From positions 1-53,713 of IMG/VR virus record IMGVR_UViG_3300036852_000233: 53,713 bases of DNA; one strand, given 5' to 3'. Below the pieces are notes generated by a model. The model saw only the letters and a program-made list of their open reading frames with translations, ran no database searches and had not been told where the DNA came from. Shown in pieces: positions 21,228 to 36,477 of this stretch. Every line of letters starts with the position of its first letter. Position 1 is the stretch's first letter. The DNA is from a virus. Position numbers and translations under genes: made by a program.

Positions 21228-21629
21228 GCGAGCAGGTCAGGATCTACCGGGTGTTCTGCGAGAGGCAGGCCGGAGGTGAATCGTGTTGTCACACCCTCGC
21301 TGTACGATGCAGCTGTCCCGCTCGACAACCAAGATCGGGGCGATGCCGCCGGGCAGGCGGTGTACCGCGCGGGCAGGCCCTTGACCGGGCCGAGTCCCCG
21401 CCGAGAGGCGGGAGGCGGTTCCGCGAACCACCCGGACAGGCAACCGGGAATCCCCGCCCTTCTAGGGCAGGGAGGATGTCAATATCTGCTGGTGTGCCTA
21501 GAGTGCAGCGAAGGCTCCGATGCGCTCATTCTGCCGTTCGACAGTGCAGAGGCGCGGGGGAAGTGGGCGGCCGCGCATACCAAAGAGACTGGGCACGACC
21601 GCTGGTACGTGGAAGACGAGGAACGATGA
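21224..21629 (+). pseudogene. Small CxxC protein gene split by a structured RNA-like element
   Basis: The first 21 codons (MSEQVRIYRVFCERQAGGESC) and the last 48 (starting YLLVCLECSEG, with LPFDSAEARGKWAAAHTKETGHD) are separated by the 196-bp element at 21287-21482. As it stands they are in different frames. Deleting exactly the element puts them in one frame and gives a 69-residue protein. The second half looks like a small actinophage protein with a CLEC knuckle. Either the halves are made separately, the gene is dead, or the element is removed. Confidence 0.6.
21287..21482 (+). ncRNA. HEARO/omega-RNA-like element, copy 1
   Basis: Homologous to 36296-36477. Shared anchors at constant spacing: TGTCACAC, 8 nt, TACGATG, 17 nt, AACCAAG. 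Then a CCGCC-GGCGG hairpin (346-350/356-360), CGCGGGCAG, GGTTCCGCGAACCACCCGG, CAACCGGGAA, a terminal hairpin and GGATGTCAA. The layout resembles the RNA scaffold of IscB-type (HEARO) or TnpB-type elements, whose right ends commonly finish TCAA. No transposase or nuclease gene is linked. Identification is from memory of these families; the homology and covariation are seen directly. Confidence 0.7.
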
Positions 21630-21632
21630 GCG

Positions 21633-21740
21633 ATGAAACGTCTTCAGATCGTCGCTACGCAGTATTGCCCGTGCTGCCGCCGCGACCATGACGTGTACGG
21701 GTTCGTGGTCGTGGGCAGTTACGTGATCCGCTCGACCTGA
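21633..21740 (+). CDS. 35-aa cysteine-knuckle protein
   Basis: ATG 21633, four bases after the previous stop. MKRLQIVATQYCPCCRRDHD then a beta-like VYGFVVVGSYVIRS. CxCC plus His suggests a metal site. It is the last gene of the plus-strand arm before the terminators. Confidence 0.6.
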   Translation: MKRLQIVATQYCPCCRRDHDVYGFVVVGSYVIRST

Positions 21741-21753
21741 CCCTAGACGCCAA

Positions 21754-21791
21754 GATGCCGCCACGTCCTTGGGGAGGAACGTGGCGGCATC
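21754..21791. terminator. Hairpin terminator between convergent arms (1)
   Basis: GATGCCGCCACGT (21754-21766) pairs perfectly with ACGTGGCGGCATC (21779-21791) around a 12-base loop. It closes the plus-strand operon. Confidence 0.75.
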
Positions 21792-21845
21792 TGTATGGTC
21801 CAGCCATCGCAATAGCGGGAGTCTAGCAGGCGGTCCGGACAGACC

Positions 21846-21889
21846 ATTCGGCCCCCTACCGCCGGCCGGACGGTCTGCGGGGGCCGAAT
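21846..21889. terminator. Hairpin terminator between convergent arms (2)
   Basis: ATTCGGCCCCC (21846-21856) pairs perfectly with GGGGGCCGAAT (21879-21889). The 22-base loop itself can fold. It lies 45 bases beyond the stop of the holin-like gene and probably ends the late (minus-strand) transcript. Confidence 0.65.
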
Positions 21890-21933
21890 CGTGGTCCGAC
21901 ACTTCTACGGCGTGCCGGTACCGTACCGGGAGT

Positions 21934-22197
21934 CTATCCCGTCGGTCGGCGTGGCTGGGGTTGTGGCCGCTCGTCGGCGATCCGGCTCGGCGGCGGCGGC
22001 TCGGCACGCTCGGCCCGTGGGGGCGGCACCGACTGGACGTTGCGAACCCCGAATACCCCGAGGGCGGTCGCCGCGCCGATCACCACCGGCGCCCACCGCT
22101 GCACCCCCTCCGGGGTACCGGGGGGCAGCTGGGTCGCCAGGACCGCAGCCAGGCCGATGATGGCGACGATCGCCTTGCGTGCACCAGCGACGTTCAT
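21934..22197 (-). CDS. Holin-like membrane protein, 87 aa
   Basis: ATG 22197 with AAGGAGG upstream. Two membrane helices (AIVAIIGLAAVLATQL and WAPVVIGAATALGVFGV) separated by a short turn, followed by a charged Pro/Arg tail. Size and topology fit class II holins. It sits close to the lysin gene with another two-helix protein just upstream. Confidence 0.55.
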   Translation of the reverse strand: MNVAGARKAIVAIIGLAAVLATQLPPGTPEGVQRWAPVVIGAATALGVFGVRNVQSVPPPRAERAEPPPPSRIADERPQPQPRRPTG

Positions 22198-22346
22198 GGT
22201 TGCCTCCTTGGCCAGGGAATGGCGACCGCCAGGGCAAAGTGCGCCGCCCAACAGGCAAGGGCGAGCAGGAAGATGTCGACCTGGCCGAGGTGATCGATCC
22301 CGAACGCGTCGAGCAGCAGCAACGCTGCGGCGATGAGCGCGAGCAT
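22194..22346 (-). CDS. Two-helix membrane protein, 50 aa (holin partner candidate)
   Basis: ATG 22346 with GGAGGCGCC upstream. LALIAAALLLLDAFGI and LLALACWAAHFALAVAI are membrane helices, ending WPRRQP. It overlaps the next holin-like gene. Tandem small membrane proteins near a lysin usually form the holin/antiholin pair in actinophages. Confidence 0.55.
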   Translation of the reverse strand: MLALIAAALLLLDAFGIDHLGQVDIFLLALACWAAHFALAVAIPWPRRQP

Positions 22347-22354
22347 GGCGCCTC

Positions 22355-22816
22355 CTACCAATGCAACCAGAAGTGGATGATCTCGTCCTGCGCGACCGTG
22401 AGCGGCAGCGGGTCCTTCGTCCGGCAGACTGCGGCGTGGAGGCGATTCTCCAGGCCGTCTTTGCGCTGCTGGTCACGGTCGTTGAGCTGCGGCCAGATGT
22501 TCTTGGCGCCGTTGCCGCCGCCGAGCTCCAGCGGCAGAAGGTGATCCCACTCGGCGACCTTCTGGCTGGCCGGGTAGCCGTATGCCTTGAGGACGGCGGC
22601 CTTCTGGGCGGCGGTCAGGCTGCGACGGTGCTTGCTTGCCCACCCGGCCGTGCACACGTCCGCGCGGCTGGTGGTTGCCACGACCCCGGGGGTGATGGTC
22701 GGTTTGGGCTGGCCGAGGGTACTGAGCGTGGTGGTCGTGGATATTGGCTGCTGGTGGGAGGTGCAGCCGGCCAGGAGTGCCAACGCCAACACGAGCAGCA
22801 GGACGCGGCGGGTCAC
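22355..22816 (-). CDS. Phage lipoprotein with nuclease-like domain
   Basis: 153 residues from GTG 22816. The signal peptide ends LLAGC, a lipobox (Cys18). A Thr-rich linker precedes a domain with EWDHLLPLELGGGNGAKNIW and NDRDQQRKDGLENRLH, resembling secreted HNH/His-Me-finger-like proteins of Actinobacteria (DHLxPLELGG...N..N). It would be tethered outside the membrane. Superinfection exclusion or DNA degradation at the surface is a possible role, inferred only. Confidence 0.65.
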   Translation of the reverse strand: MTRRVLLLVLALALLAGCTSHQQPISTTTTLSTLGQPKPTITPGVVATTSRADVCTAGWASKHRRSLTAAQKAAVLKAYGYPASQKVAEWDHLLPLELGGGNGAKNIWPQLNDRDQQRKDGLENRLHAAVCRTKDPLPLTVAQDEIIHFWLHW

Positions 22817-23013
22817 GCCATCTCCAACTCCTCGACCGCATGGGGGGACATGTTGCCTTGGGCTTCACCTTCGCTGGAATCCCAGATCACGAACGCCACA
22901 CCGTCGACGACGCGGTCGATCGTTCCGGCCGGTGAGGTGAACCCGAACCGGGCGTTGATGGTGGTCATCGGATCGTACTGCGCCTTCCAGCGGACCCGGT
23001 CCCCGGCGTTCAC
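22813..23013 (-). CDS. Hypothetical 66-aa protein
   Basis: GTG 23013 overlaps the upstream stop. GDRVRWKAQYDPMTTINARFG and GTIDRVVDGVAFVIWD look like a small beta-barrel (SH3-like) protein. Function unknown. Confidence 0.7.
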   Translation of the reverse strand: MNAGDRVRWKAQYDPMTTINARFGFTSPAGTIDRVVDGVAFVIWDSSEGEAQGNMSPHAVEELEMA

Positions 23014-23201
23014 CAGTCCACCTGCTTCGGGTCGTGCCAGTCGGTGATGTGGGCATGCTCGCAGCAGCGGTAGATATGGCCAGTCTTGCCACTGCCACGC
23101 CGGAGGAAGATGACCCGGTCATCTTTGCCACACACGTCGCAGGTGACGATGCCGCAGCCGACCGCCTTCCACTTCGGCTCAACGAACTTCGCGGCGGTCA
23201 T
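23010..23201 (-). CDS. Zinc-finger hypothetical protein, 63 aa
   Basis: ATG 23201 in an overlap. CDVCGKDDRV and RCCEHAHITDWH supply CxxC and CC-H ligands. Function unknown. Confidence 0.7.
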   Translation of the reverse strand: MTAAKFVEPKWKAVGCGIVTCDVCGKDDRVIFLRRGSGKTGHIYRCCEHAHITDWHDPKQVDW

Positions 23202-23332
23202 GACAGTCGTGCCTCCTGATTCCAGCAGACCCATGAGGTGGTCCCGGTCCCCCACGACAGTGGCAGACCAACCGGCCACTCCTCCCCGTCGGCCACGGCG
23301 CCCTCGTCCGGGTCGGATGCGCGGTCGTTCAT
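23198..23332 (-). CDS. Hypothetical 44-aa protein
   Basis: ATG 23332 overlaps the upstream stop (ATGA). Acidic start (MNDRASDPDEGAVADGEEW) followed by Trp-containing end. Function unknown. Confidence 0.55.
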   Translation of the reverse strand: MNDRASDPDEGAVADGEEWPVGLPLSWGTGTTSWVCWNQEARLS

Positions 23333-23601
23333 GCCCATAGCACCCCAGAGCTCTGGCAGGACTGGCATGTCTCCGGACTGGTACCCGCACCCCACCCGCC
23401 CGTGTAGAAGCCAGCGGGAACGTGGCCGCGGCCCTCGCAGACCGGGCAGCGGTAGGGGCGGGTCTGCGGTGTGGCAATCGCCTGATACATCGGATGCTGC
23501 CAGTCGCCCATGTCGAGCAGCATGGGCCGCTTGCAGACGTGGCTCGGCCCTGAGGAGGGCGGGAGCGGCTCCCCGCAGGAGCAGACACCAGGCGAAGTCA
23601 T
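23329..23601 (-). CDS. Protein with DnaJ-like zinc modules, 90 aa
   Basis: ATG 23601. CSCGE near the N-terminus, then CPVCEGRGHV and CQSCQSSGVLW, i.e. two CxxCxGxG-type modules. Such proteins may act as zinc-stabilised adaptors. Coupled to the lysin-like gene. Confidence 0.7.
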   Translation of the reverse strand: MTSPGVCSCGEPLPPSSGPSHVCKRPMLLDMGDWQHPMYQAIATPQTRPYRCPVCEGRGHVPAGFYTGGWGAGTSPETCQSCQSSGVLWA

Positions 23602-24491
23602 ACCGTCGCCTTCGGCCCAAACTGAACGGTGACGACACCGCCCGGGTCGGTGGTGACGCCGACGATCTCGAGCTGCCCGGCGACCAGCGCCGCCAGCGTG
23701 GCCGGATCGACGACCTGACCGACCTTGCTGGCCAGCGTGTCGAGGCGGGTAGAGATGTCGGACAGGCCAGCGGCGAGGTCCTGGCGGGTCCGCTGCAGGT
23801 TGTCTGGATGGGTGTCCTTGGTCGGGTCAGTGGTCTCGTCCCCGCGGATCACCACCAGCAGGCCCTGCTGCACCGCGGCGAACTTGGCGTCCAGGTAGGT
23901 CCTTGTAGCGTCATCGAGCACGGTGAGGTCTCCTTCCATGTCCCAAAGCCGGGTGGAATCGGCCACCAGTGACGCGTCCCAAGGTTGGCCGAGGGTGGTG
24001 TCCCCGCCGTACTGGGTGGCCGCCGACCCCGCGTTCAGATGCGGCTCGTTGGTCCACTGCGCATCCCAGTACCCACCGCTCGGCTTAGGGTTCTGGAGGA
24101 CGGTCCGGCGGGTGCCGTACACCATCACCTTCCAGCCGGCATCCATGACCGCCCGGTCGAAGGCGGCCAGGTAGCCCGGGTCGATGCGGGTCTCGTAGTC
24201 CAACGCTAGCGTGGTGCCGCGGGGGACCTCGTGGCGGACCAACCAGGTGATCGCCGAATGCGCGTCAGCCAGCGGGTCACCGCCGGTCGAGCGGACGAAG
24301 ATCGGCAACCTGTAGCGGGCCGCCTGGCGGGACCACTCCGCGTCGGTCCATACGTGGGGCGTGTTCCCGCCGATATACCCGGCGACCGCCTCCCACTTCG
24401 GTGGCGAGGTCGGCGGGAACGCCGCGTCGAACATCCGTCGCAAGGCCATAGGCTCCCCATACGTGTCGTGGTAGATGTCCGAGTAGGTCAT
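23598..24491 (-). CDS. DUF1906/GH25-like lysin candidate, 297 aa
   Basis: Residues 35-200 resemble the glycoside-hydrolase-like DUF1906/GH25 fold: AGYIGGNTPHVW, then TTLALDYETRID (catalytic-type acids), AGWKVMVYGT and DAQWTNEP. The C-terminal part is helical. Family members act on actinobacterial cell walls. The first residues (YSDIYHDTYG) resemble the start of the minor tail protein at 26070-27374, so it may be virion-associated rather than, or as well as, the lysis enzyme. Confidence 0.65.
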   Translation of the reverse strand: MTYSDIYHDTYGEPMALRRMFDAAFPPTSPPKWEAVAGYIGGNTPHVWTDAEWSRQAARYRLPIFVRSTGGDPLADAHSAITWLVRHEVPRGTTLALDYETRIDPGYLAAFDRAVMDAGWKVMVYGTRRTVLQNPKPSGGYWDAQWTNEPHLNAGSAATQYGGDTTLGQPWDASLVADSTRLWDMEGDLTVLDDATRTYLDAKFAAVQQGLLVVIRGDETTDPTKDTHPDNLQRTRQDLAAGLSDISTRLDTLASKVGQVVDPATLAALVAGQLEIVGVTTDPGGVVTVQFGPKATV

Positions 24492-24503
24492 CGGCGGTCC
24501 AGG

Positions 24504-24914
24504 TTAGTGCGGCAGGCAGACCGGATGCTGCGTTGTACTCGGGTGCACCGTGCTCTTGGGCGTCTGGCACGTCGTGCTCGTGACCGGCAAGGTAGTGCTG
24601 GTCGCCACGGTCGTGGCTGGCCCAGTCGTCGGTGGTGGCATCACCACGATGATCCCCGCCGGCCCCGCCGGCCCGGGCGGTCCCGGAACGCCTGGTGGCC
24701 CTGGAACGCCGATGAGTCCGGCCGTCCCCGTCGTTGAGGACGGGGAGGTGCTCGGCGGTACCGACGGGGGCCGACCGGACGTGGGTGGCCGGGTGGTGAC
24801 CGGCGGCAGGGTCGTCGAGGTCGGGATGGTCGGCTCGAACACCTGCGAGCTGACCGTGACCGCGGCGATGAACGCGGCGGTGGCGACTAGGCCGAGGATC
24901 ACCGACCATCTCAT
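24504..24914 (-). CDS. Membrane-anchored collagen-like protein, 136 aa
   Basis: One N-terminal membrane helix (VILGLVATAAFIAAVTV), a Thr/Pro-rich stalk, then a short collagen-like stretch of G-x-y triplets (GVPGPPGVPGPPGPAGPAG) and another Thr/Pro stalk. Collagen triplets trimerise fibres; here they may form an envelope-spanning spike of the lysis or tail module. Function unknown. Confidence 0.65.
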   Translation of the reverse strand: MRWSVILGLVATAAFIAAVTVSSQVFEPTIPTSTTLPPVTTRPPTSGRPPSVPPSTSPSSTTGTAGLIGVPGPPGVPGPPGPAGPAGIIVVMPPPTTGPATTVATSTTLPVTSTTCQTPKSTVHPSTTQHPVCLPH

Positions 24915-25267
24915 GGGGGCTCCCCATTAGGAGTCGCAATGCCCTCGCGGTGTAACGCGTCCTCGAGCTGGCGGATCCACCGTCGCAGCGCCTGCTCCCG
25001 GACCCGTGCGGCCTCCACGTCAGCCTCAAGGGCGGCGACCCGCCGGTTGCAATTCTCGATCCGCCTCTGCGCCTCATCGATGCCAGCCTGATAGAGCCCC
25101 TTCGCCTGGTCGAACGCCTCACGGACCTCATCTTTGCTGGCCTTCTTGGCGGCGTCCTTGCGGATCTGCTCGGCCTGCTTGCGGTTGGCGGTGCCAAGCT
25201 GCCACACCAGGACCGAGCTGAGCGCCGCTGCGAGTGTCGGCAGGAGGATCCCGAGGAGGCCGAGCAT
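24911..25267 (-). CDS. Membrane-anchored coiled-coil protein (spanin-like?)
   Basis: ATG 25267; 118 residues. N-terminal membrane helix (LLGILLPTLAAALSSVLVW) followed by about 80 residues of charged coiled coil. The topology matches Rz-type spanins, but actinobacterial hosts without a classical outer membrane would not need one. Lies in the lysis region. Confidence 0.6.
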   Translation of the reverse strand: MLGLLGILLPTLAAALSSVLVWQLGTANRKQAEQIRKDAAKKASKDEVREAFDQAKGLYQAGIDEAQRRIENCNRRVAALEADVEAARVREQALRRWIRQLEDALHREGIATPNGEPP

Positions 25268-25268
25268 G

Positions 25269-25733
25269 CTAGTCCTGCCGGTAGGGGATGCCGCGTTGCG
25301 CGGCCACCACGAGAATACACAGGCAGATCCACTGGCCCGCGGCACGGACGATCAGCACATGCGCGTCCGGCCAGGCCGCCAGCGTCAGGATCGCCAGGAG
25401 GATCTTGAGGAGCCACGCGGCAGTGAACGCCGCACGGTCGTCATCCACCCATACTTGCCAGCCACACAGTGCTCCGACCAGGGCGAACAGGATCGCCCAC
25501 AAAAGCAGCGGATGGGTGGCGCTGAAGCGTGCGCCGAACCCGACGATCGCGCTGGATGCGGGCGCGGCCGCCAGTAGCCCTGCGGCCCGACGGTCCCATA
25601 GGCCCCATGCCCAGAAGAGGTCCAACGTAGCGAGGCCGGAGAGGAACAGGCCGCGGTAGCCGACCCGGTGGGACAGCCGATGAACCACCACCGCGAGGCG
25701 GTGGTCGGCGTCGAGCAGCTGGGCGCGGATCAC
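25269..25733 (-). CDS. Multi-pass membrane protein, 154 aa
   Basis: GTG 25733 overlaps the upstream stop. Four hydrophobic segments can be counted (GLFLSGLATLDLFWAWGLW; LLWAILFALVGALCGW; WLLKILLAILTLAAW; GQWICLCILVVAA). Position suggests a lysis or envelope protein. Function unknown. Confidence 0.65.
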   Translation of the reverse strand: MIRAQLLDADHRLAVVVHRLSHRVGYRGLFLSGLATLDLFWAWGLWDRRAAGLLAAAPASSAIVGFGARFSATHPLLLWAILFALVGALCGWQVWVDDDRAAFTAAWLLKILLAILTLAAWPDAHVLIVRAAGQWICLCILVVAAQRGIPYRQD

Positions 25734-26023
25734 GCCAGGCACACGTAGACGTAGTTGACGGCGGTGGCGGAGGACACCCCGCCCCATCGTGCCCGGAACG
25801 TGGTGGAGCCGTAGGTGTCGGTGCCGTACACCCCGGTCGGACCGCCGCCAAGCCCCTGCCCCGACCAGAAGCAGATGACCACGCTGGGGGTGAACCCGGC
25901 ACCATGGGTGATCGTCAGGTAGCCACTGGCGTCGGTCGTGCCCGACCCCGACCCGATGTGCAGGGTGCGGCTCGAGCCGGGAGCGGCCTGCACCACCAGC
26001 GTGTTGAGGTCCGAAGCGGTCAA
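25730..26023 (-). CDS. Small tail/decoration protein, 97 aa
   Basis: TTG 26023 with GGAG close upstream. Beta-rich with Gly/Ser/Thr (SGYLTITHGAGFTPSVVI) and YGSTTFRARWGGV, typical of receptor-binding or tip proteins. Follows the minor tail gene. Confidence 0.65.
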   Translation of the reverse strand: MTASDLNTLVVQAAPGSSRTLHIGSGSGTTDASGYLTITHGAGFTPSVVICFWSGQGLGGGPTGVYGTDTYGSTTFRARWGGVSSATAVNYVYVCLA

Positions 26024-26069
26024 AATGTCTCCGCTTGACCAGGTCTTTCTCGCGATGGTGATCGTCCTC

Positions 26070-27374
26070 CTACGCCAGCGTCCCGGTGTTGAGTTTCGAG
26101 GTATTCAGCTGGAAGGGCTTGAAACTGTCGATGTTGCGGGTGTCGAACCCGATCTCCCAGTAGTCCTGCGTGATGTCGTGGTTCAGCGACTGGATGATGA
26201 CCTGCACGTCCAGGGTGTTCGGACCGTAGTCGCGGACAACCCGAATCCGGTCGAGGTAGGTGAGGCCGAGCAGGGTCGTCCACATCCCCTGCGTTTCTGC
26301 GTGGATGGTGACGTGGGTGACCCGGACGTTGGGGGTTTTGGACCGGCCGACGATCCAGTTCCCGATCGACAGAGCATCCGAGTCGACCCGCAGTAGCGTC
26401 CCCGCGGTCCCCGAGAACGTCCGGATCCCGTAGGCGGTCTGGGAGGTGACGTCGTCGGCTTGCTGTTCGATGCCGCCGTTGCGGGTGATCAGCGCCCGGT
26501 TGGCGATCGTGTCCCGCTGCTTGGACACAGTCACCTCGAGCATGTCCACGTCGGTGCCGACGTCGGAGATGGTCGCGCGGACGGTCTGCGACCGGTGCGC
26601 CAGGTAGGGGTGTAGGCGGTCGTAGAACACCACCGCACCGTTCCCGTCGACGGCGAGGAAGCCGAGTTCGGTGGCGACCGCGTCGTTCACCATCTGCAAC
26701 GCCGACCCCGCATCGCCCAGGACGGTCTGCTGGCAGGTGGACAGGCCCGTGTCGATCTTGCGGAGGGTGGTCGGCCAGGCGGCGCCGTCGAGGATCCGGT
26801 TGATCCGGGCGCCGGTGGTCTCCCCATCCGGGTAGGGAAACCCCGACCGCAACACCGCGCTGGCCAGCACCTCCAGCCCGTCGGTGCATGCCAGCGTGAC
26901 GGTGGGGTCGAACCCGGCGTCGAGGGTGATCGAGTCGGTGAACCCGCGGAACAGCGGGTAGGTGACGCCCTGCCAGATCGCCTTGACCCACACGGCCACG
27001 CCGACGTCGAGCTGCCCGTACCAGGGGCTAGCCGGGTTGAGCGGGTCGTAGGTCCCGGCGGTGTTGTCCAGGTAAACCTGGCAGGTTCCGGGGGAGGCGG
27101 CCTCGAGCTCGCCGGCCTGGCCACGCTGGAAGCTGACCCGCTGCACGTCGGCGGTGACATCAACGAACCCGACCGCGCCGAGCTGCCCGGTCCCAAGCGC
27201 GGAGGAGTCGAGGACGAAGTAGCCGCCAGCGGGGTCGATGGTGGTGGTCCCGCCGAAGGCGACCTCGACGATGATCTGGGGCGCGTTGACTCCGTCGAGG
27301 GAGTAGATCGCGCCGACCTGGGGGCCGAGCGTCCCGTAAACATCAGAATAGACATCGTGGTAGACATCAGGCAC
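26070..27374 (-). CDS. Minor tail protein, 434 aa
   Basis: Starts MPDVYHDVYSDVYGTLG; then beta-rich with DVTADVQRVSFQRGQAGE and an extended region resembling tail-hub proteins of actinophages (GTCQVYLDNTAGTYDPLNP, ITLDAGFDPTVTLAC). The family sits at the tail tip below the tape measure. Confidence 0.75.
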   Translation of the reverse strand: MPDVYHDVYSDVYGTLGPQVGAIYSLDGVNAPQIIVEVAFGGTTTIDPAGGYFVLDSSALGTGQLGAVGFVDVTADVQRVSFQRGQAGELEAASPGTCQVYLDNTAGTYDPLNPASPWYGQLDVGVAVWVKAIWQGVTYPLFRGFTDSITLDAGFDPTVTLACTDGLEVLASAVLRSGFPYPDGETTGARINRILDGAAWPTTLRKIDTGLSTCQQTVLGDAGSALQMVNDAVATELGFLAVDGNGAVVFYDRLHPYLAHRSQTVRATISDVGTDVDMLEVTVSKQRDTIANRALITRNGGIEQQADDVTSQTAYGIRTFSGTAGTLLRVDSDALSIGNWIVGRSKTPNVRVTHVTIHAETQGMWTTLLGLTYLDRIRVVRDYGPNTLDVQVIIQSLNHDITQDYWEIGFDTRNIDSFKPFQLNTSKLNTGTLA

Positions 27375-27390
27375 GGCGTATCCTCAGCGG

Positions 27391-27699
27391 ATGAACGATG
27401 CGCAGCGACCCTTCGGCTTCACTGTCAAAGCAGTGCGCTCCCGGTACGGTCCGGAGAAGCAAACGAACCAGTGGGGCGTCATCACCTACGTAGAGCAGGC
27501 GGTAGACCAGCCGTACTGGCGGGTCTACCTGCCGCACTAGTGCGACGAATGGCAGATCACCGACGATGAGGGCTACGACTCCACTGGCAGCATCGTGCAT
27601 GGATCGAGGCCGGCTGCCGCTATTGCCGAACTGGAGCGGTTCATCGCCGAGGCACAGCAGGCCCTAGAAGCACTTCGCGCAGGCCAAGAGTTCGGTTAG
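27391..27699 (+). pseudogene. Plus-strand small gene with in-frame amber codon
   Basis: ATG 27391 opens a frame against the surrounding late operon. Codons 1-49 read as a natural protein (RPFGFTVKAVRSRYGPEKQT, ITYVEQAVDQPYWRVYLPH). Codon 50 is TAG (27538-27540). The same frame then continues for 52 codons as natural sequence (CDEWQITDDEGYDSTGSI, helix ELERFIAEAQQALEAL) to TAG at 27697. One change such as CAG to TAG would explain it. It could be a dead moron gene, or be read by an amber suppressor. Confidence 0.7.
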
Positions 27700-30044
27700 T
27701 TGTGGGTGGACATGAACCCGAACGACTGGCCGCTGGACACCGCCACCGTGCTCTTGATCGCCACCGTCCACCCGATCCCCAAGTAGCTGGTCGCTGAGGC
27801 GGTGTAGGTTTTGGTGCCGTAGGTACCGGCCGCGTGGGTGGTGGCGTCGTCGGTGACGACGCTGGCGACCCGCCCGTCCGAGGTCCCGGAAGGGAACGCT
27901 ACGGCGCGTTGCGCCTCCCCACCGGGCAGCGTCCATGAACTCGTGAGCCCGCCAGGGTTGTCGCGGGTGAACGCGGCGGAGATGACAAGGTCGCTTGAGC
28001 CGGTGGTGGTCGCGTTTGGGGTGACGACGGTGGTGGAGTCGGTGTTCTTGGTGGATGACTGGTCGACGTCGACGAGGGCGACCTGGTCGGTGCCGGAGTA
28101 GGCGACCAGGTCGATCGACCCGTGCGCGTTCACCGAGTTACCTGAGCCGTCGGTGGTGTTCAGGGCGATGCTGCTGTTGGGGTCGCCAGCAGCGGCGGTC
28201 TTACGGTACAGGCGGCTCACCAGCTCGGCGGCGCCAGCAGCGAGCAGCCGCGAGTCGAACGCCACCCATCCGGTCGGGTCGGTCAGCACCGCGGAGGTCC
28301 CGGAAGGGCCCATCCACGTGTCGGTGGTCAGACCCATGTCGTCCATGTACAGGTCGTAGGTTTGCGCGACCGAGCTGGACAGCCCGAAGTTGTAGGAGAC
28401 CCCGGCGGCGGTCTGGGTGAACGCGGTCGAGTCGACCGGGCCCTCGTCGACAGTCGTCTCGGCTGCCCCACCCGCGTTGGTGTTCTCGAAGATCTTGACT
28501 GTGACCGTGGTCGTCGACCCGTTCCAGACGTACTTCCATTCGACCCGGTTCCACACGTTCGCAGCCGGGGTGATCGTGGAGGTGTAGCGGGTCGCGCCAG
28601 CGGCGATATCGCGGATGATCACCTTCCCGGCGGTGTCCAACCCGATACCCCAGTTACTCCCGGTGGTGGGGTTCTGCTGCATCAACCGGGTGATCTGGGC
28701 GGGCAGCGCGGTCCGGTAGTAGTACAGCCGGCCGTAGTAGGTCGACGGGGAACCGAAGCTGGCCTGCCAGGTCGTCCGCGAGGTCGTTTGCGCCGCCACG
28801 CTGTGATGGATCGACGTAGTCCCAGCGTGTGCCTGCGTGCTCGAGTAGACCGGGATCGGGGAACCGATCGAATCCCACGGGTTCGACCCCACCGAGTTCG
28901 AGTTGCCGGTGGTGACGTTGCCGAGGTTGGTACCCTCCGCGGCGTTGCGCAGGCCGATACGGGTGCAGGTGTGGAACAGCAGCATCCCATCCCCGGCCTG
29001 CACCGTCGATGGCACCGTCAGCGTCTGACTGGCCGAATTCGAGAACGACTTGCTGGCACCATCCCGGAACGAACCCGTGCTGATCGGGGGGCCGGTCGGG
29101 CTCAGGTCCGGGTTGAAGTAGTCCGCCTTCGCCAGATCCTGGAATCCCTTCAGCGCGTTGGCGGAGGTGTTCATGCATTCGCTGACCCCGGAGACGCCGT
29201 TGAAGTAGACGATCGCCTTGACCTGCGGGTAGCTGGCCTGAAGGGTGGTGCGGACCTGGTCGTAGAACCCCTGCTTGGTGTTCGGATAGCTGCCGGTGGT
29301 CTCCTTCTTCCCCCACTCCGCCATCATCAGCGGCTTGGTGTGGCTGCCGCTTTTGGTGACGGTGGCCCAGTTGAGCATCGGATACTTCGTCTGGATGACG
29401 TAGTCCAAGTCCTCGCTGGTCGAGGCGCTGCCGTAGGGATCCCACCCGATCCAGTCCACGTAGGCGTCGCCGGGGTACAGCGCGTTCATCCGGGTTGGGA
29501 ACTGGGTGAGGTACCCGCTCGGCTTGAACACCCACACAACGTTGGTGGCGCCTTGCGCGACGAACACGTCGTGGAGGTGCTGCGCCGCCGACGCGTACTC
29601 CGCGTCGGTCCCGTACGTCCCACCATCCGCACTCGAGCTGGCGTTCATCTCGTTGTGGAACGCCAGGAAGAACGTGACGCCCCAGTCCCGCATCAACTTG
29701 GCCTGCGGGATCACGATCGAGTTGTCGTAGGAGCCGGCGGCGATGTCGGGCCACCTGTACTGCGTCGATGATCCGAAGATCCGCGGAGTCCAATGGATCA
29801 GCAGCAGCCGACCCTCAGCTGACATCGCCTGCTCATCAGCGGTCGGGAACGCCGTCGCGTAGTCGTTCCAGTCGTGATAGGCCGACGCGATGTTGAGGAC
29901 GCCGTTGGTGGTGGGGGTCCGGTTGGCCGTGGTCTCGAAGTTGCGAACCCGGGTGGCGTAGCTGGTCGCCGAATCACACGACGTCGACGGGTACACCCCG
30001 AACAGGCAGCCGACGTTGGGGACCAGGATGGAGCTGAGGCTCAC
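27696..30044 (-). CDS. Tail fibre/depolymerase with GH26-like glycosidase domain, 782 aa
   Basis: Residues 1-300 resemble GH26 beta-mannanases: FFLAFHNEMN (129-134, acid/base E132), DWIGWDPYG, and LMMAEWGKKE with the nucleophile-type E243. Further on are lectin/LamG-like beta regions (KVIIRDIAAGATRYTSTI; YLGIGWTVAIKSTV). It is a strong candidate for a virion enzyme cleaving a host surface mannan or capsule. Encoded between minor tail genes. Confidence 0.75.
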   Translation of the reverse strand: MSLSSILVPNVGCLFGVYPSTSCDSATSYATRVRNFETTANRTPTTNGVLNIASAYHDWNDYATAFPTADEQAMSAEGRLLLIHWTPRIFGSSTQYRWPDIAAGSYDNSIVIPQAKLMRDWGVTFFLAFHNEMNASSSADGGTYGTDAEYASAAQHLHDVFVAQGATNVVWVFKPSGYLTQFPTRMNALYPGDAYVDWIGWDPYGSASTSEDLDYVIQTKYPMLNWATVTKSGSHTKPLMMAEWGKKETTGSYPNTKQGFYDQVRTTLQASYPQVKAIVYFNGVSGVSECMNTSANALKGFQDLAKADYFNPDLSPTGPPISTGSFRDGASKSFSNSASQTLTVPSTVQAGDGMLLFHTCTRIGLRNAAEGTNLGNVTTGNSNSVGSNPWDSIGSPIPVYSSTQAHAGTTSIHHSVAAQTTSRTTWQASFGSPSTYYGRLYYYRTALPAQITRLMQQNPTTGSNWGIGLDTAGKVIIRDIAAGATRYTSTITPAANVWNRVEWKYVWNGSTTTVTVKIFENTNAGGAAETTVDEGPVDSTAFTQTAAGVSYNFGLSSSVAQTYDLYMDDMGLTTDTWMGPSGTSAVLTDPTGWVAFDSRLLAAGAAELVSRLYRKTAAAGDPNSSIALNTTDGSGNSVNAHGSIDLVAYSGTDQVALVDVDQSSTKNTDSTTVVTPNATTTGSSDLVISAAFTRDNPGGLTSSWTLPGGEAQRAVAFPSGTSDGRVASVVTDDATTHAAGTYGTKTYTASATSYLGIGWTVAIKSTVAVSSGQSFGFMSTHN

Positions 30045-30724
30045 GCCGGCACCGTCAGCTGCACGAGCAGCAGGATCTGCAACGGCCCACCCGACGATCC
30101 CTGCGTGACGTGGGTGGTGATGACGCTGGTCCCACCCGTCAGGGAGGTGGAGGAGAACACCGCCGCGATCGTGTTAACGGTCTGGCCGACCACGATCTCC
30201 GGCTGCGTCGACAGCCGAGTAGTGCCGCCGACCTTCAGATCCACCTTGGTGTTCAAACCGGTGGTGGCGACGTTCTTCAACCAGCAGGTGTAGCTGTAGA
30301 GGTCGGCGTTGAACGGCACGACCAGGTTGTACTGGATGTCCAGTGGACTGGTGACCGTGTCGACGGTCCACAGGAACGGCAGGATCGGCCGGTCGGAGCG
30401 GTGCTTGTGGTCCTCCCGCGCGTAGTTGGTGCCGGTCCCCACCGCTGACGCGGTGGTGTAGTCCATCGCGATGACCGTCGAGGCGGGCGTCCCGGCGGGT
30501 ACCGCCGCCCACGCGGTGGTGCCATCGCCCTGCTTGACTGGCACCCACCCGGTGGTCGCGGCAGCGGCAGTCGAGGTGCCGATGCCGAGTTTGGCTTCCA
30601 GCGCACGGATCGCGCCGTGGGCGTTCGGGTGGTGGGTGTCGTGCCCGGTGGTCACCCCATCCACGACAAGGTCGTCGGGGATGGTGGTGTCGTCGTCGAG
30701 CGCGGCAGGGTACTTGGTCGCCAC
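30041..30724 (-). CDS. Minor tail protein, 227 aa
   Basis: N-terminal MATKYPAALDDDTTIPDD and DTHHPNAHGAIRALEAKLG resemble fibre-adaptor modules seen at the start of phage tail fibres. The C-terminal half is a beta domain (DLYSYTCWLKNVATT, VIVVHVTQ-like). Directly overlaps the GH26-like gene, so it may bind it to the tail. Confidence 0.7.
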   Translation of the reverse strand: MATKYPAALDDDTTIPDDLVVDGVTTGHDTHHPNAHGAIRALEAKLGIGTSTAAAATTGWVPVKQGDGTTAWAAVPAGTPASTVIAMDYTTASAVGTGTNYAREDHKHRSDRPILPFLWTVDTVTSPLDIQYNLVVPFNADLYSYTCWLKNVATTGLNTKVDLKVGGTTRLSTQPEIVVGQTVNTIAAVFSSTSLTGGTSVITTHVTQGSSGGPLQILLLVQLTVPA

Positions 30725-30733
30725 AGACGGCTC

Positions 30734-33376
30734 CTAAAGCTGGTTCGCGATGTCTTTCTTGCCACGACTCCGCAGGTCCTCGCGGATGCTTTGGAGCAGT
30801 TGCCGAGCGGCAGTACGGTCAGTGCCGACCGCGGTGATGTTGAAGATGAACGTGTTACCGCCGCCGTAGCGGCGCCCCGGGGTCACGCTGACGGTCTCCG
30901 GACCTGCCTCCCCAACCCCGATCAGGGTCGGGCGGGAGAACACGGTCTCCGGCAGCCCACCGGCGTACCAGTGGGGCGAGCGGGCCTGCCATGCCGCCCA
31001 CGCGGTCGCCGGATTGCCGTACACCATCTTGATGTAGTTCAGACCGGCGGCGATCTGGTCCTGCGGGTTGGAGGTCTTGTGGAACCCGGTCATCGCCCAT
31101 GTCGAGTCGAGGAACTGCGCGATCCCGTAGGCGCTGGAGGTGGGGTTCTGCGCGGCCGGGTTCCAGCCCGACTCGTGCTGCCACAGTTGGCGGAGCGCGT
31201 CCCACTGGGCGCCGACCCAGCCCATCATCGCGGCCATGCTCTTGCCGAGGTCGACGATGGGTCCGACCGCGCCGGTGGTGGTGAACCCCGCCCAGATCTG
31301 CGACCACACGTCCTTGAGCGGCCCGGCCACGTCGGAGGCGAGCCCCCGGAAGAACCCGGCCACGTCGGCGGCACCGTGGGCGAGGCCCTTGAGGATGCCG
31401 CCCATCACGTGCTTGCCAGCCGAGATGGCCCAGTCCGGTGGGCTGTGGATCCCGAGCGCCCCCAGGATCTTGGAGGGCAGACCTTTGAACCAGCCGACCA
31501 CGGTGTTCCAGACCGCTTTCACGCCGTTGAACATCCCGCTGATGATGTCCTTGCCCTTTTGGAGCAGCCACGTCCCCGCACCAGCGAGCGCGGTTTTGAT
31601 GCGGCCGGGAAGGTCCCGGAACCACTGGACCAGTTGCCCCCAGCGGGACAGGATCAGCGGGATCGGGCCGAGGAACCCGTCTTTGGCGGCGCGGACGACC
31701 TGATCGGCGAGCCAGTGCGCCGCCGCGACAAGGGCATGCCACGCGTCGTTGATCCCATGCCACGTCTTCAGAACCCACTCGCGGATGTCCTGCCAGGCCT
31801 TGACGAAGAAGTCCCGCATGTTCAGGACGGCGTGGACGAGGTTGGCGGCGGCATGCTCGAGCGCCGCCCACGTCCCTTTCACGATGTTGCGGAACGTCTC
31901 CGAGGTCTTCCACAAATGCACCAGCCAGGCCGCCAAGGCGACCAGCGCGACGATCACGATCCCGATCGGGTTGGCGGCCAAGACCACGTTCAGGACGCCT
32001 TGGGCGACCGCGAACAGCTTGGCCCCGACCGCCACCTTCACCAGCGTCGGCGCGAGCAGGATCAGCAGCGGGGTGAGCGCCAGCAGGATCGGGACCAACC
32101 CTTGCACGAGCACTGACGCGATCTTGGCGGCGGCGGGGATGATCGGCAGGAACGCCAGCGCTGCGGTCACCACCACCGGGATGAGGGGAGCCAGCGCGAT
32201 CAGGAGCTGCCCGACCGCTTTGGCGACCTGCACCAGCGACGGGGCGGCCTGCTTGAACGCCACGGCCAGCGCGTTCCCGACCTGGTTGGCGACCTGGATG
32301 ATGATCGGCAGGATCACCTTCAACGCTGGCATGAGCCCGCCGAGCAGTGCCGTGACAACGGGGATGATCGCGCTGAGCAGGTTGTTGGCGACCTTGCTGA
32401 TCCACACGGCCAGGTAGACCAGCGATGGCAGCAGCGGCTGGATCCCCTTCAGGAGCTGCCCGACGACCTGGACGAGGCCGACGAACGCGGGGACCAGCTG
32501 CGGCAACACCTTCGCAAGCGCGCCCGCCAGCGCCGCGACGACGCTGGACAGGACCGGCAGCAACGCCCGCAGGATCGCCGCCAAGGCGGGGAACAGCGCG
32601 CCGGCGAGCCGGCCGATCGCGGGGAGCATCTGGTTGATCGCCTTACCGACCAGCGGCAGGACCTTCATCAGGCCCGAGTCCAACGCGGTGCCGACCCCGA
32701 GGATCGCCTGCTGGAACGCCGGCATGATCTGCTGGCCGAGGCGGACCAGCGACCCGATGATGCTGCCCACGATCGGGAGCAGCGACCCGATGGTCTGCAA
32801 GAGGGTCCCGAACGCCTTGGTATTCCCTGACAGCGGCGACAGGATCATCTGCAACGCCGCAGCGAGGTTGCCGACCAGGTCAGGGATCTGGTTGAAGAAC
32901 TCCCGCACGATCGGGAGGACCTGCTTGATGAGCGGTTGGAACTCGGTGATCACATTGAACACTGCGCTGACCAAGCCCTTGCCGAACACGTCCACCAGCG
33001 GTGCGACAGACTTGAAGAACCCCTGCAAGACGGGCTGCATCGTCTTCAGGCTCTCGCGGATGTACTTCACCAGCCCGAGCATCGTGTCCTGCACCGGCTT
33101 GGCGTCGGCGGCAAGTTGGTTCTTCAGGCCCTGCCCGAGGTCCTTGAACTCCTTACGGACGTTCTTGTTCATCAATGCCGCAGCAACGCCCACGCCAGCA
33201 AATGCCGCGCCCAAACCAACGCCCAAAGTCCCCGCAAGTCCAACGCTCGCGACCCCAGCGGCACCAGCAGCCGCGACGAATTTTAGAGTTCCGGTGGACA
33301 GGACCTGGAGATCTTTTGCTGTTCCAGCGGCGGCGACACCTACCCCAGAGATGGTGCGGGAGGCGTTGATGTCCAC
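30734..33376 (-). CDS. Tape measure protein with lytic transglycosylase domain
   Basis: 880 residues as read from GTG 33376. Long hydrophobic helical stretches with regular repeats (VLPLVGKAINQMLPAIGRLA) and Trp-rich helices are typical. Near residue 733, HESGWNPAAQNPTSSAYGIAQF is the soluble lytic transglycosylase active site. The protein sets tail length and opens peptidoglycan. GTG 33376 has no ribosome site; the natural start is probably ATG 33420 behind AAAGGAGG, in another frame because of a T5/T6 ambiguity (see finding). Confidence 0.9.
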   Translation of the reverse strand: MDINASRTISGVGVAAAGTAKDLQVLSTGTLKFVAAAGAAGVASVGLAGTLGVGLGAAFAGVGVAAALMNKNVRKEFKDLGQGLKNQLAADAKPVQDTMLGLVKYIRESLKTMQPVLQGFFKSVAPLVDVFGKGLVSAVFNVITEFQPLIKQVLPIVREFFNQIPDLVGNLAAALQMILSPLSGNTKAFGTLLQTIGSLLPIVGSIIGSLVRLGQQIMPAFQQAILGVGTALDSGLMKVLPLVGKAINQMLPAIGRLAGALFPALAAILRALLPVLSSVVAALAGALAKVLPQLVPAFVGLVQVVGQLLKGIQPLLPSLVYLAVWISKVANNLLSAIIPVVTALLGGLMPALKVILPIIIQVANQVGNALAVAFKQAAPSLVQVAKAVGQLLIALAPLIPVVVTAALAFLPIIPAAAKIASVLVQGLVPILLALTPLLILLAPTLVKVAVGAKLFAVAQGVLNVVLAANPIGIVIVALVALAAWLVHLWKTSETFRNIVKGTWAALEHAAANLVHAVLNMRDFFVKAWQDIREWVLKTWHGINDAWHALVAAAHWLADQVVRAAKDGFLGPIPLILSRWGQLVQWFRDLPGRIKTALAGAGTWLLQKGKDIISGMFNGVKAVWNTVVGWFKGLPSKILGALGIHSPPDWAISAGKHVMGGILKGLAHGAADVAGFFRGLASDVAGPLKDVWSQIWAGFTTTGAVGPIVDLGKSMAAMMGWVGAQWDALRQLWQHESGWNPAAQNPTSSAYGIAQFLDSTWAMTGFHKTSNPQDQIAAGLNYIKMVYGNPATAWAAWQARSPHWYAGGLPETVFSRPTLIGVGEAGPETVSVTPGRRYGGGNTFIFNITAVGTDRTAARQLLQSIREDLRSRGKKDIANQL

Positions 33377-33449
33377 GCCGAACAGCTTAAAAAGGTCAGA
33401 CTGGCCGTGTTACCGGGCATCTGACTGCACCACCTCCTTTCTCGAAGCT

Positions 33450-33920
33450 CTAGATGAACGACTGCTGCCCAGGACTAGGACGTCCCCTGCGTCTCAATCC
33501 CGCTGCTGCTAACTTCCTTTGGCGCTCCGCACGGCACTGGCGACAGGCATTATGTCCCGTCTTTGGGTGGACGTAGATATTTGCAGGAATCCAAGGATGC
33601 CCATTACGACAAGCGCCATTCATCTTGCGCGTCGCACGCGCACGCGCAGTATTTTCTCCACGCGTGACAATTTCCATATGTTGCGGGTTAACGCAGCAGC
33701 GGACACGACACAGATGATCCAGCGTCAAACCATCAGGGATGGGGCCTTTCAGCAACTCCCAGATAAGGCGATGCGCGGCTCGGTTCTTTCGGCTGCCTGG
33801 AGGCCACGTGGCGGCCCCGTAACCAGTCACGGCAACATGGCCGATCCAGAGCCAGCATCCTGTCGTTTCTTCAATGCGGATCTTAACCGTCAGCTTGAAC
33901 GGCAGGGCAGACAGGTCCAC
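33450..33920 (-). CDS. HNH homing endonuclease
   Basis: 156 residues from GTG 33920 (AGGGGG upstream); ATG 33986 would add 22 but lies within a terminator hairpin. GCWLWIG, AAHRLIWELLKGPIPDG, LDHLCRVRCCVNPQHMEIVTRGEN is the HNH_3 homing-endonuclease core. The C-terminus has CRNGHPW and CRQCR zinc ligands. The sequence is visibly more AT-rich than its neighbours, a sign of transfer. It separates the tape measure gene from its usual upstream partners. Confidence 0.88.
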   Translation of the reverse strand: MDLSALPFKLTVKIRIEETTGCWLWIGHVAVTGYGAATWPPGSRKNRAAHRLIWELLKGPIPDGLTLDHLCRVRCCVNPQHMEIVTRGENTARARATRKMNGACRNGHPWIPANIYVHPKTGHNACRQCRAERQRKLAAAGLRRRGRPSPGQQSFI

Positions 33921-33967
33921 AAGGGACCACCCCCTTGATGTGAGTTCCTTGATGTCGTCAGATAAAC

Positions 33968-34003
33968 GGGGAGCCCCAGCCATCAAGGGAACTGGGGCTC
34001 CCC
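33968..34003 (-). terminator. Hairpin downstream of the gp10-like gene
   Basis: GGGGAGCCCCAG (33968-33979) pairs perfectly with CTGGGGCTCCCC (33992-34003), followed leftward by GTTTATC. It would stop leftward transcription before the homing endonuclease and tape measure genes unless bypassed, so downstream expression may need readthrough or another promoter. Confidence 0.6.
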
Positions 34004-34028
34004 TACCCGCCGACGAAGCGGGCTTCTT

Positions 34029-34544
34029 TCAGCCGAGATGAAGTTTCCCAGCAATCACCTTGGCTTTTATATCGTCGAGCACCTTGCGGACCTCGTGTTC
34101 CATCTCCGGCCGTTTCTCCCGCATGGTGGAGTCGAAGTACGGGTAGCCCCGCTGGAACACCACCGGCTTGTGCCCATACGTCGGGTGTTTCCAGCCGCCC
34201 CGGTCGATGTCTTTGGGGAGGTCCCGGGAGTTGCGGCCGCGGAGCCCGGCGGTGAACTGTTTGACCGCCACCTCCCGCGCAGTCACGCTCACCTTGATGT
34301 CGAGCGCCAGCGTGGACCGCAACCCAACCCCGGTCCCTGCCCTGCTCTTGCGGTAGTGCCGGCCTGCGCCGGTGGCGGTGTACTTGGCGGTCGCGGGCAT
34401 CGTGCGGATCTTCACCCGAGCGGCGTCCGCGCCGATCTTGGCGGCCTTCCGCAGCCGCTTCCGGAACGCGCGGCGGATCTCCGGGCGCATCCCCCGGGTC
34501 GCGCGGGTCAACTGAACGTAGTCAGCAACGTCGATCTTCGGCAT
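34029..34544 (-). CDS. HK97 gp10-like tail/head completion protein, 171 aa
   Basis: Basic N-terminal helix (RRAFRKRLRKAAKIGADAAR) and ending HEVRKVLDDIKAKVIAGKL match the gp10-like minor structural family. It is unusual to find it between tail chaperone and tape measure, where it normally sits with connectors. ATG 34544 overlaps the chaperone stop. Confidence 0.55.
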   Translation of the reverse strand: MPKIDVADYVQLTRATRGMRPEIRRAFRKRLRKAAKIGADAARVKIRTMPATAKYTATGAGRHYRKSRAGTGVGLRSTLALDIKVSVTAREVAVKQFTAGLRGRNSRDLPKDIDRGGWKHPTYGHKPVVFQRGYPYFDSTMREKRPEMEHEVRKVLDDIKAKVIAGKLHLG

Positions 34545-35133
34545 CAGCCCTGCCTCTTGGCTTCCTCGTCAGCACGCTTCTGGCGGCCCTCGTCGATCGC
34601 CTCGGTCACGAACCGGAGCCGTTCCGCCTGCCGCCAGCCGAGCTCGTCGACCATGGTGGGGGTCCACCGGAACCGGTCAGCCCACCACAGGTCATCCAGG
34701 GCGGCATGCCAGACCGGATCCAGCCGCTGTGCGAGCTGCGGTTTCAGCCCGTACTGGCCGATGTTGACGAGGGTCCCGCGGGCAAAGGGGATGGTGCCTG
34801 CCCGTTGGCCTCGCCACCGCCAAGGATCTCCGCCAGCGCCGGGGTGACCACCGCCGCCAGCGGCTTGTGATACTTGACGGGGAGGTCCTGCACCGACGCC
34901 AAGCTCACCTCGAGCGGCTGGCCATCGTCGTTGGTCAAGGACCAGCGGCGCACGAACCGCACGATCAGCGCATCCTGCAGGGTGCCGATCCCGGACAGCC
35001 CCATCCCGGCACCGAACAGGTTGATGCCTTCGTCGTCGGCGGCTTTGAGCGCGAACCGGACGTCGCCGCGGCGCAGGTCGCCAATGTCGCGCAGATCGGC
35101 CGTGTGGCCGTCGGGGAGTTCGATGGTGGCCAT
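34544..35133 (-). CDS. Tail assembly chaperone, frameshift product (GT)
   Basis: Made by -1 frameshift at CCCTTTG (34783-34789) from the short chaperone frame into the overlapping frame. After the shift the protein reads FARGTLVNIGQYGLKPQLAQ and continues to KRADEEAKRQG, adding about 80 residues. Long and short forms together guide tail-tube growth on the tape measure. Order and overlap are those of the lambda G/GT pair. Confidence 0.8.
34744..35133 (-). CDS. Tail assembly chaperone, short form (G)
   Basis: 129 residues from ATG 35133, starting in the overlap with the major tail protein stop. MATIELPDGHTADLRDIGDL and LPVKYHKPLAAVVTPALAE. Ends shortly after the slippery site in a low-complexity tail (PSSTSASTG), as expected for the unshifted product. 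Confidence 0.82.
   Translation of the reverse strand: MATIELPDGHTADLRDIGDLRRGDVRFALKAADDEGINLFGAGMGLSGIGTLQDALIVRFVRRWSLTNDDGQPLEVSLASVQDLPVKYHKPLAAVVTPALAEILGGGEANGQAPSPLPAGPSSTSASTG
34783..34789 (-). other. Slippery heptamer for -1 frameshift
   Basis: Zero frame reads C CCT TTG; slipping back one base gives CCC TTT G, the X-XXY-YYZ pattern. Both frames are open here and the downstream frame carries the rest of the chaperone. Confidence 0.75.
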
Positions 35134-36287
35134 CAGAACGCCTGGTCCTGGGAGACGAGCCTGATCTGCACCGGAACACCCCCACCGTCGTCGTAGCACT
35201 CAAATCCGATACTCTCCGGAATCAAGTCAGGACCGCCAACCGCGAGGGGGTCAGTCTTGAATTTGACAAATGGGAGCACAAAGGACAAACGGTACGCGCC
35301 GGTGCCGGTGCTGCCGGCCGCGCCGTCGGCGCCGGAGCCGTTGATGCCGTGGGCGAAGTCAAGCTGCAACGACCGGGTCGCATTGGTGGAGAACAGGTCG
35401 TAGAACTCGGTGCGGTTGGTGAACTCGGCGTCCAGCGTGCCGGTGAGGGTGGGGATGCCGTTCTCAAGCTGTTCGCGCTTTATGCCGGCGTTGCCGAACC
35501 CGTACCGCTCGGAGGCGACCGGCCGGGCGGCGGTGAGGGTGAACCCCTTCACCACGTGGCTGACCGAGGCGGTGCCGGTCAGGGTGGTGTAGTTCCCGGT
35601 CCCGGTCCCGGTCCCACCAGTACCCGGCAGCGACCCGGTGCCCGCCTGGGTGCCGGTGCCGACCTGGAACAGGTAGGCGTCCACGAACGAGAAGATCTGC
35701 GACTGATAGGTGGATGCGGCGAACACGGGCTGGGTGATGGACCCGGTGGTGGTGCAGTTCATCCCGTCGGCGGTGAGCTTCAGCTGCGCGAGCGCACCGT
35801 CGGAGCAGGTGAACTCCCAGCCCGAGAACTTGAGGCCGGAGTAGCCGAACCGGATGGACGTGTAGGGGCTTGCGATCTGCGGGCGGCCGACCTCTGCGGT
35901 GAGTGACAGGCCGGCGGTCGTGCCGGGCTGGTGGACCTGCTGCCACGCGGAGGTGGCGCCGAGCTGCTGCGCCCCGGTCGCCGGTGACCCGAGGGCGTAG
36001 TGGAGCAGAAACCCCATGCCCTTCCCACCGGTCGCTGACACGCCCCGGTCGGCGAACTCGAAGACGAGGTCGCCGTTGACGTCGTAGCGGCTGATCGCGG
36101 TCCGCTGGCCACGCTTGAACGCCTGCCCCTGCTTCAACCCGGCCGAGTCGAGGTAGGTCGGGGTGAGCGCCAGCGACTCCGACAGGAACTCATACCAGGC
36201 GGTCGGCACCGCTTCGGTGCCTGGGGTACCTTCGACGCCGAACCCGAGACTGGCGCCAAGCCCGGATGCGTAGGGGATTGGACTCAC
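35133..36287 (-). CDS. Major tail (tube) protein, 384 aa
   Basis: Start taken at GTG 36287 (VSPIPYASGLGASLGFGVEG). LGFGVEGTPGTEAVPTAW is the usual opening of actinophage tail-tube proteins, and there is an Ig-like or variable loop rich in Gly/Thr (about 235-250). GGAGG abuts the GTG with no spacing, so the ribosome site is poor at present. The RNA-like element at 36296-36477 lies just upstream and has displaced the natural site. Confidence 0.82.
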   Translation of the reverse strand: MSPIPYASGLGASLGFGVEGTPGTEAVPTAWYEFLSESLALTPTYLDSAGLKQGQAFKRGQRTAISRYDVNGDLVFEFADRGVSATGGKGMGFLLHYALGSPATGAQQLGATSAWQQVHQPGTTAGLSLTAEVGRPQIASPYTSIRFGYSGLKFSGWEFTCSDGALAQLKLTADGMNCTTTGSITQPVFAASTYQSQIFSFVDAYLFQVGTGTQAGTGSLPGTGGTGTGTGNYTTLTGTASVSHVVKGFTLTAARPVASERYGFGNAGIKREQLENGIPTLTGTLDAEFTNRTEFYDLFSTNATRSLQLDFAHGINGSGADGAAGSTGTGAYRLSFVLPFVKFKTDPLAVGGPDLIPESIGFECYDDGGGVPVQIRLVSQDQAF

Positions 36288-36295
36288 CTCCGTAC

Positions 36296-36477
36296 TGTCA
36301 CACGCATGGGATACGATGATGTTGCGCTCGGCGATAACCAAGCTGGGACGCTCTGCCGCAGGACATGCGGTGAACAGCGCGGGCAGTCACTCCGGTGGCG
36401 AGGCATCAAGCCGGTTCCGCGAACCACCCGGAGAGACAACCGGGAACCCTTCGCCCGTAAGCGAAGGGGGATGTCAA
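36296..36477 (+). ncRNA. HEARO/omega-RNA-like element, copy 2
   Basis: 182 bp on the plus strand, homologous to 21287-21482, with the same anchors and spacings. Its hairpins carry compensatory changes: CCGCA/TGCGG here against CCGCC/GGCGG there, and CCCTTCGC/GCGAAGGG here against a different GC stem there. It ends GGATGTCAA; the TCA supplies the stop codon of the minus-strand gene at 36474-36638. It lies just upstream of the major tail protein start. No nuclease gene nearby. Confidence 0.7.

Follow-up and report, generated by a model that had tools for sequence, protein, structure and literature searches.

Two probable TnpB-less guide-RNA mini-elements of IS200/IS605 descent in a phage genome

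The window analysed in this study is the complete 53,713-nucleotide (nt) stretch of the IMG/VR virus record IMGVR_UViG_3300036852_000233, a phage genome with two homologous RNA-like segments on its plus strand (21287-21482 and 36296-36477). A first-pass annotation made from the letters alone had described them as covarying guide-RNA-like elements without a nuclease gene, and the positions, the strand and all shared motifs and blocks which it listed were each found in the sequence. Within the phage genome the two are the sole BLAST match to each other (E = 2.9e-15). Element 1 (e1; 21293-21482, 190 nt) interrupts a small phage gene on the plus strand (21224-21629, composed of 21224-21292 and 21483-21629). 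Element 2 (e2; 36302-36477, 176 nt) is located between a minor tail protein gene (35133-36275, minus strand; PHROG 290, E = 5.3e-21) and a small gene of the structural module (36478-36638, minus strand), whose stop codon lies at the insertion. Both are very probably non-autonomous IS200/IS605-type insertions, i.e., guide-RNA mini-elements devoid of tnpB.

The limits of the elements were deduced from the interrupted genes. Removal of e1 from behind TGTCAC through TGTCAA yielded an in-frame protein of 71 amino acids (MSEQ..CCH-YLLVCLECSEG..), of which the portion from YLLV onward is conserved in related phages. Removal of e2 in the same way produced the end ..KDKE-stop, and the relatives end with KDKE, TKE or SKE followed by a stop codon. 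Cuts moved by one base in either direction restored no frame at either locus. As a single one of the three excision phases restores both frames, TGTCAC was assigned to the target (21287-21292 and 36296-36301, plus strand), and the idea that the repeated TGTCA belongs to the element at both ends was rejected. The outer bounds proposed in the first-pass annotation are thus correct as the points where homology between the segments stops, but the elements proper start behind the target motif. Empty sites were found via the conserved minor tail gene beside e2 (85-95% identity in the relatives). In 4/4 related phages (L052-L055) e2 was absent between the same two genes. Homology to the closest relative restarts exactly past TGTCAA, at 21483 for e1 and at 36478 for e2. 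Both elements sit behind a TCAC motif, and the target was not duplicated; TCAC or TCAT is also present left of the left end in the autonomous TnpB elements of the nearest subfamily and in mini-elements of host genomes (TCAY). Two restored frames and four relatives lacking e2 argue for non-autonomous insertions beside TCAC. In the relatives the e2 site reads CTAC, since the stop codon there is TAG; a TGA stop in the ancestor of the window would have created TCAC at this position.

Both elements fold into the same order of hairpins, with modest z-scores (-2.25 for e1, -1.75 for e2). On the plus strand, a -10-like promoter box TACGAT (e1, 21303-21308; e2, 36312-36317) is followed by a 5' hairpin, termed hairpin 1 (e1, 21314-21342 with loop GACAACCAA at 21324-21332; e2, 36324-36351 with loop GATAACCAA at 36333-36341), by hairpin 2 (e1, 21343-21363, loop GGGCA; e2, 36352-36372, loop GGACA) and by a right-end hairpin (e1, 21452-21472, then GAGGATGTCAA; e2, 36447-36468, CCCTTCGC..GCGAAGGG, then GGATGTCAA). 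The sequences have diverged by about 29%, yet every stem and both loops were kept, as were the -10 box and the TCAA end. The compensating stem change reported earlier is real (GCCGCC/GGCGGU in e1 versus GCCGCA/UGCGGU in e2), and the 3' hairpins, unlike in sequence, pair in both. Covariation extends to hairpin 1, which had not been named as a hairpin before: its 9-nt loop GA(C/T)AACCAA is closed by C-G in both elements, while its stems are wholly unlike. The claim of selected RNA structure holds. Inspection by eye revealed no consistent partner in the scaffold for pairing with the AACCAAG loop.

The kinship of these RNAs became visible at their 3' ends. A blastn search of plasmids with e1 gave 1595 records, and most of the matches listed cover only about the last 37 nt (GGGAAnCCC-hairpin-GGGAGGATGTCAA); many of the right ends among them lie at annotated tnpB or transposase genes (e.g., L003, L005, L006). 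The tnpB gene of Streptomyces plasmids terminates at an e1-like right end, and hairpin 2 of e1 (GCCGCCGGGCAGGCGG) occurs identically in the final coding part of tnpB (..LAAGQA..). Because of these two observations, the 3' half of e1 was identified as the omega-RNA end of a TnpB element. The covariance model R1, for which e1, e2 and a single TnpB-less Streptosporangium carneum element served as input, found matches in 50 of 395 sampled actinobacterial genomes. Matches of about 45-68 bits (L068-L082) were mostly 3' ends of tnpB loci with the core GCCGCAGGrCrTGCGGTG..TGCGCGGGGAGGC..GAACCGCGAACC, demonstrating homology of the scaffold to these ends; e2 scored 173.8 bits, but belongs to the building set of the model. 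With the TCAA end in place and flank homology resuming directly behind it, the 3' flank would serve as guide. A match in Streptomyces phage VWB (8.8 bits with R1) was dismissed as chance coding/intergenic likeness.

The earlier suggestion of a TnpB-type scaffold is consequently supported by right end and scaffold, whereas the parallel likeness to HEARO, the omega-RNA of IscB, is not. That e1 and e2 are HEARO/IscB-type elements had been proposed from their layout, without tool support. The Rfam model of HEARO gave no match to either element at E values up to 10, the end is of TnpB type, and the guide is predicted on the 3' side instead of the 5' side. The general idea of a transposon-borne guide RNA is the shared feature; this origin can practically be dismissed. 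The recommended covariance-model check against Rfam was negative at the gathering score, which is explained by the absence of a suitable family there; nevertheless, R1 finds the same RNA at tnpB 3' ends. The best bacterial or archaeal Rfam likeness of e1 was HgcC (RF00062; 20.6 bits, E = 0.0097), including the right-end hairpin and the GAGG(A/U)GUCA end, at a score far under the gathering score of 50, and e2 gave no match. In its 3' part, the model of HgcC itself resembles an IS605-type right end or omega-RNA, so that this Rfam family possibly represents a guide RNA of TnpB.

Elements of the same architecture were encountered repeatedly in actinobacteria. Two weaker matches of R1 (L085, L094) share the 5' hairpin and are devoid of TnpB. 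A pattern search through 299 genomes of one actinobacterial order gave matches in 48. As a backwards control pattern also matched many genomes, only inspected cases were counted: 20 elements from beyond this phage in which hairpin, scaffold and right end are all present, plus that of S. carneum. Together with e1 and e2 the list contains 22 elements, and 23 with S. carneum for the covariation analysis. Hairpin 1 was 97.1% paired over these 23 sequences, with 5/6 pairs varying on both sides, and hairpins 1 and 2 jointly reached a covariation score of 0.400 versus 0.145 for shuffled data (0/500). For most members the loop GAYAACCAA, but not the stem, was part of the search pattern. A TANNNT box resembling a -10 element was found 18-23 nt before the loop of hairpin 1 in 21/22 elements (background 1%), and from its position transcription is predicted to begin close to the base of hairpin 1. 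Only the -10 box is claimed: a promoter with TTGTCA as -35 element was rejected for its spacing of 11 nt, which is too short. Most host copies possess a left-end hairpin, with the target motif TCAY some 96 or 153 nt upstream of the loop. The LE pattern TGTCACAC-TACGATG-ACCAAG had no matches in viral contigs or the 395 genomes, and L015 and L016, obtained by a pattern scan of genome contigs, were unrelated GC-rich chance matches. Overall, the sequences point to a widespread, nuclease-free and apparently undescribed actinobacterial family of TnpB-less elements with promoter and 5' hairpin. Separately, orphan TnpB-type right ends without upstream tnpB were observed in the viral contigs L008 (8985-9021), L011 (554-590) and L012 (7030-7066), so that such ends in viruses extend beyond this phage. 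Omega-RNA-like right ends with no adjoining tnpB annotated or seen also occur on a Streptomyces plasmid (L004, 2397-2553) and an Allochromatium plasmid (L182, 2405-2577).

Transposase-free IS605 derivatives as such are already known as a type. In the parts of the literature covered here, palindrome-associated transposable elements (PATEs) are described from Haloquadratum (PMC3119063) and Halanaerobium (PMC7290912). Judged by these passages, PATEs resemble e1 and e2 in being short, gene-free and derived from IS605 by core loss, with a right-end palindrome and no target duplication; a Halanaerobium PATE retains the entire right end together with the final 58 nt of tnpB (PMC7290912). The right-end hairpins of e1 and e2 are likewise homologous to those of autonomous elements, and their 190 and 176 nt contain no transposase or TnpB gene. 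They differ from the PATEs of these passages by a full omega-RNA scaffold, a conserved -10 box and the 5' hairpin, as well as by the missing left-end palindrome. A guide-RNA gene is not described in the passages of the two PATE papers. Due to the missing left-end hairpin, e1 and e2 were filed as derivatives of PATE-like kind and not as proven mobile members. Compared to the omega-RNA (reRNA) of IS200/IS605 TnpB elements (e.g., ISDra2; PMC8612924, PMC10097598), they do not overlap a tnpB gene and carry a putative promoter and 5' hairpin of their own, and a nuclease would need to be supplied in trans.

Potential partners were searched in the phage and in element-bearing genomes. The absence of TnpB and TnpA genes noted in the first-pass annotation was verified: no TnpA (PF01797) or TnpB domain in the window scored above cut-off, and tblastn with TnpBs and one TnpA returned nothing or chance matches; an IscB gene was not found either, although IscB was not searched with a model of its own. 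A small zinc-ribbon frame (RCPNC..RCTRCG, 48775-48900, plus strand) reached a TnpB-domain score below threshold, but does not resemble TnpB. Among 18 checked element-bearing genomes, TnpB was present in all (2-35 matches each) and Y1 TnpA in 17. The terminase of the phage shares no more than about 40% identity with those of collection phages, mainly of actinobacteria.

Right-end and scaffold homology, element bounds, empty alleles, lack of TnpB and TnpA genes in the phage, family membership, -10 box and covarying hairpin are what can be read from the sequence. The best overall explanation, to which we assign a probability of roughly 80%, is that e1 and e2 are guide-RNA mini-elements derived from IS200/IS605 and served by TnpB and TnpA of the host. 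Hence, of the options listed in the first-pass annotation, a non-autonomous element and the use of a host nuclease are the best-supported ones, the latter as a presumption. In the proposed course of events, tnpB, and any tnpA, would have been deleted from an IS200/IS605-type element, while promoter, 5' hairpin, omega-RNA scaffold and right end were kept. TnpA supplied in trans would then have made the insertions 3' of TCAC. Transcription from the promoter may yield an RNA of roughly 160 nt, extended at its 3' end by a guide read off the flank, and TnpB of the host or of a co-resident element could bind this RNA. Cleavage of uninserted alleles (TCAC plus guide) by the bound TnpB would cause the element to be kept or copied. 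Guide-RNA activity in trans appears slightly better than an even bet. Continued mobility of the two copies is somewhat doubtful, because both lack the left-end hairpin.

The predicted guides bear directly on this explanation and on its competitors. Guide 1 (TATCTGCTGGTGTGCCTAGA, 21483-21502, plus strand), the first 20 nt 3' of TCAA, is native phage gene sequence, and guide 2 (TCCTTGTCCTTCGCCTTGGC, 36478-36497, plus strand) is formed by the 20 nt 3' of e2. Both are the phage's own insertion-flank sequence, which fits an insertion and not a retargeted guide. Structured orphan guide RNAs within a phage might also represent domesticated RNAs which, with a host protein, repress or cut chosen targets, be it in a TldR-like manner or against competitors, and phage TldR systems are known (PMC13418256). 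However, both guides equal the insertion flanks, which are shared with element-free relatives, and not a conserved non-self target, and no TnpB homologue, dead or otherwise, was found in the phage. Co-option against competitors or host genes, raised in the first-pass annotation, is therefore unsupported, and domestication in general is quite improbable. The insertions could alternatively be inert relics, i.e., deletion remnants of formerly inserted TnpB elements, now functionless. The missing left-end hairpin, the small gene broken by e1 and the many IS605 remnants known as PATEs would fit, but stems, loops, -10 box and TCAA end remained intact at about 29% divergence, and hairpin 1 covaries over 23 elements, although this attests selection in the family and not strictly in e1 and e2 after their entry into the phage. 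We consider relics unlikely.

We are aware of the fact that several points weigh against mini-elements served by host proteins. The left-end subterminal hairpin of most host copies is absent from e1 and e2. A matching TnpB in the host of the phage is a presumption, and expression of the RNAs a prediction. No susceptible target allele was seen among the known relatives, since these lack TCAC beside the guide match: the counterpart of guide 1 in relative G154 has 3 mismatches and no adjoining TCAY, and guide 2 matches relative L052 in 20/20 positions, with CTAC in place of TCAC. Finally, the loop was partly a search criterion of the order-level set; the discovery of e1, e2, S. carneum, L085 and L094 did not depend on it.

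The loop of hairpin 1 also occurs, as a hairpin, inside actinobacterial tnpB genes. Among 74 TnpB-like frames, the Gln codon of the RuvC-II motif (E/D)NQ..E(D/N)L was CAA in 39/39 cases, compared to 162/1000 for other Gln codons (Fisher p = 6e-30, uncorrected for relatedness). The rare CAA is fixed there within a small palindrome at tnpB loci among L003-L221 (e.g., L031, L092, L189). Pairing between the codons on either side of the site (CGC/GCG, CGT/ACG, CAC/GTG) forms a hairpin whose loop is GANAACCAA. The (E/D)NQ motif is missing from the TnpB subfamily closest to e1 and e2, in which the loop GAGAGCCAA lies at the RESQ codons of the zinc ribbon, with CAA in 13/14. In the TnpB-less elements GAYAACCAA forms the loop of the free 5' hairpin. 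Proteobacterial and haloarchaeal TnpBs were uninformative in this respect because they lack the ENQ motif. Apparently, the coding-region hairpin is under selection at the nucleotide level, and in the simplest account it is selected as nucleic acid and was retained upon loss of tnpB. A hairpin common to tnpB coding sequence and nuclease-free elements points to a selected RNA, or single-stranded DNA, signal. As a tentative extension, the GANARCCAA-loop hairpin, placed at the RuvC-II ENQ/DNQ codons in most actinobacterial TnpBs seen and at the RESQ codons in the nearest subfamily, could be a nucleic-acid element in its own right, a second signal tying the RNA to TnpB or a host factor. If so, TnpB-less elements would be real guide-RNA parasites of TnpB, spreading in phages too. 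As an aside, a tnpB-like stretch in L009 (about 9750-10130) contains CRISPR-like repeats (GTTCCCCGCGCTCGCGGGGATGAACCG), and one piece of tnpB is repeated in it; this contig is possibly chimeric or odd.

Guide-RNA genes of TnpB transposons thus seem to persist without their nuclease, repeatedly in genomes of actinobacteria and, as seen here, also in a soil phage, and since they exist as a family without nuclease, its use in trans is directly testable. In the open literature searched, no description was found of a guide-RNA gene built in this way from promoter and 5' hairpin, of its distribution and occurrence in a phage, or of the shared coding hairpin; for TnpB-less omega-RNA genes only the PATE papers turned up within this coverage, which leaves novelty uncertain. 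Further genes of the phage attracted attention. Two DNA methyltransferases (N6_N4_Mtase) are encoded on the minus strand (6451-8013 and 15756-17249), one of them fused to a ParB_N domain. A glycosyltransferase gene (PHROG 7162; 43263-44354, minus strand) is part of the block of structural genes, close to the one for the major head protein.

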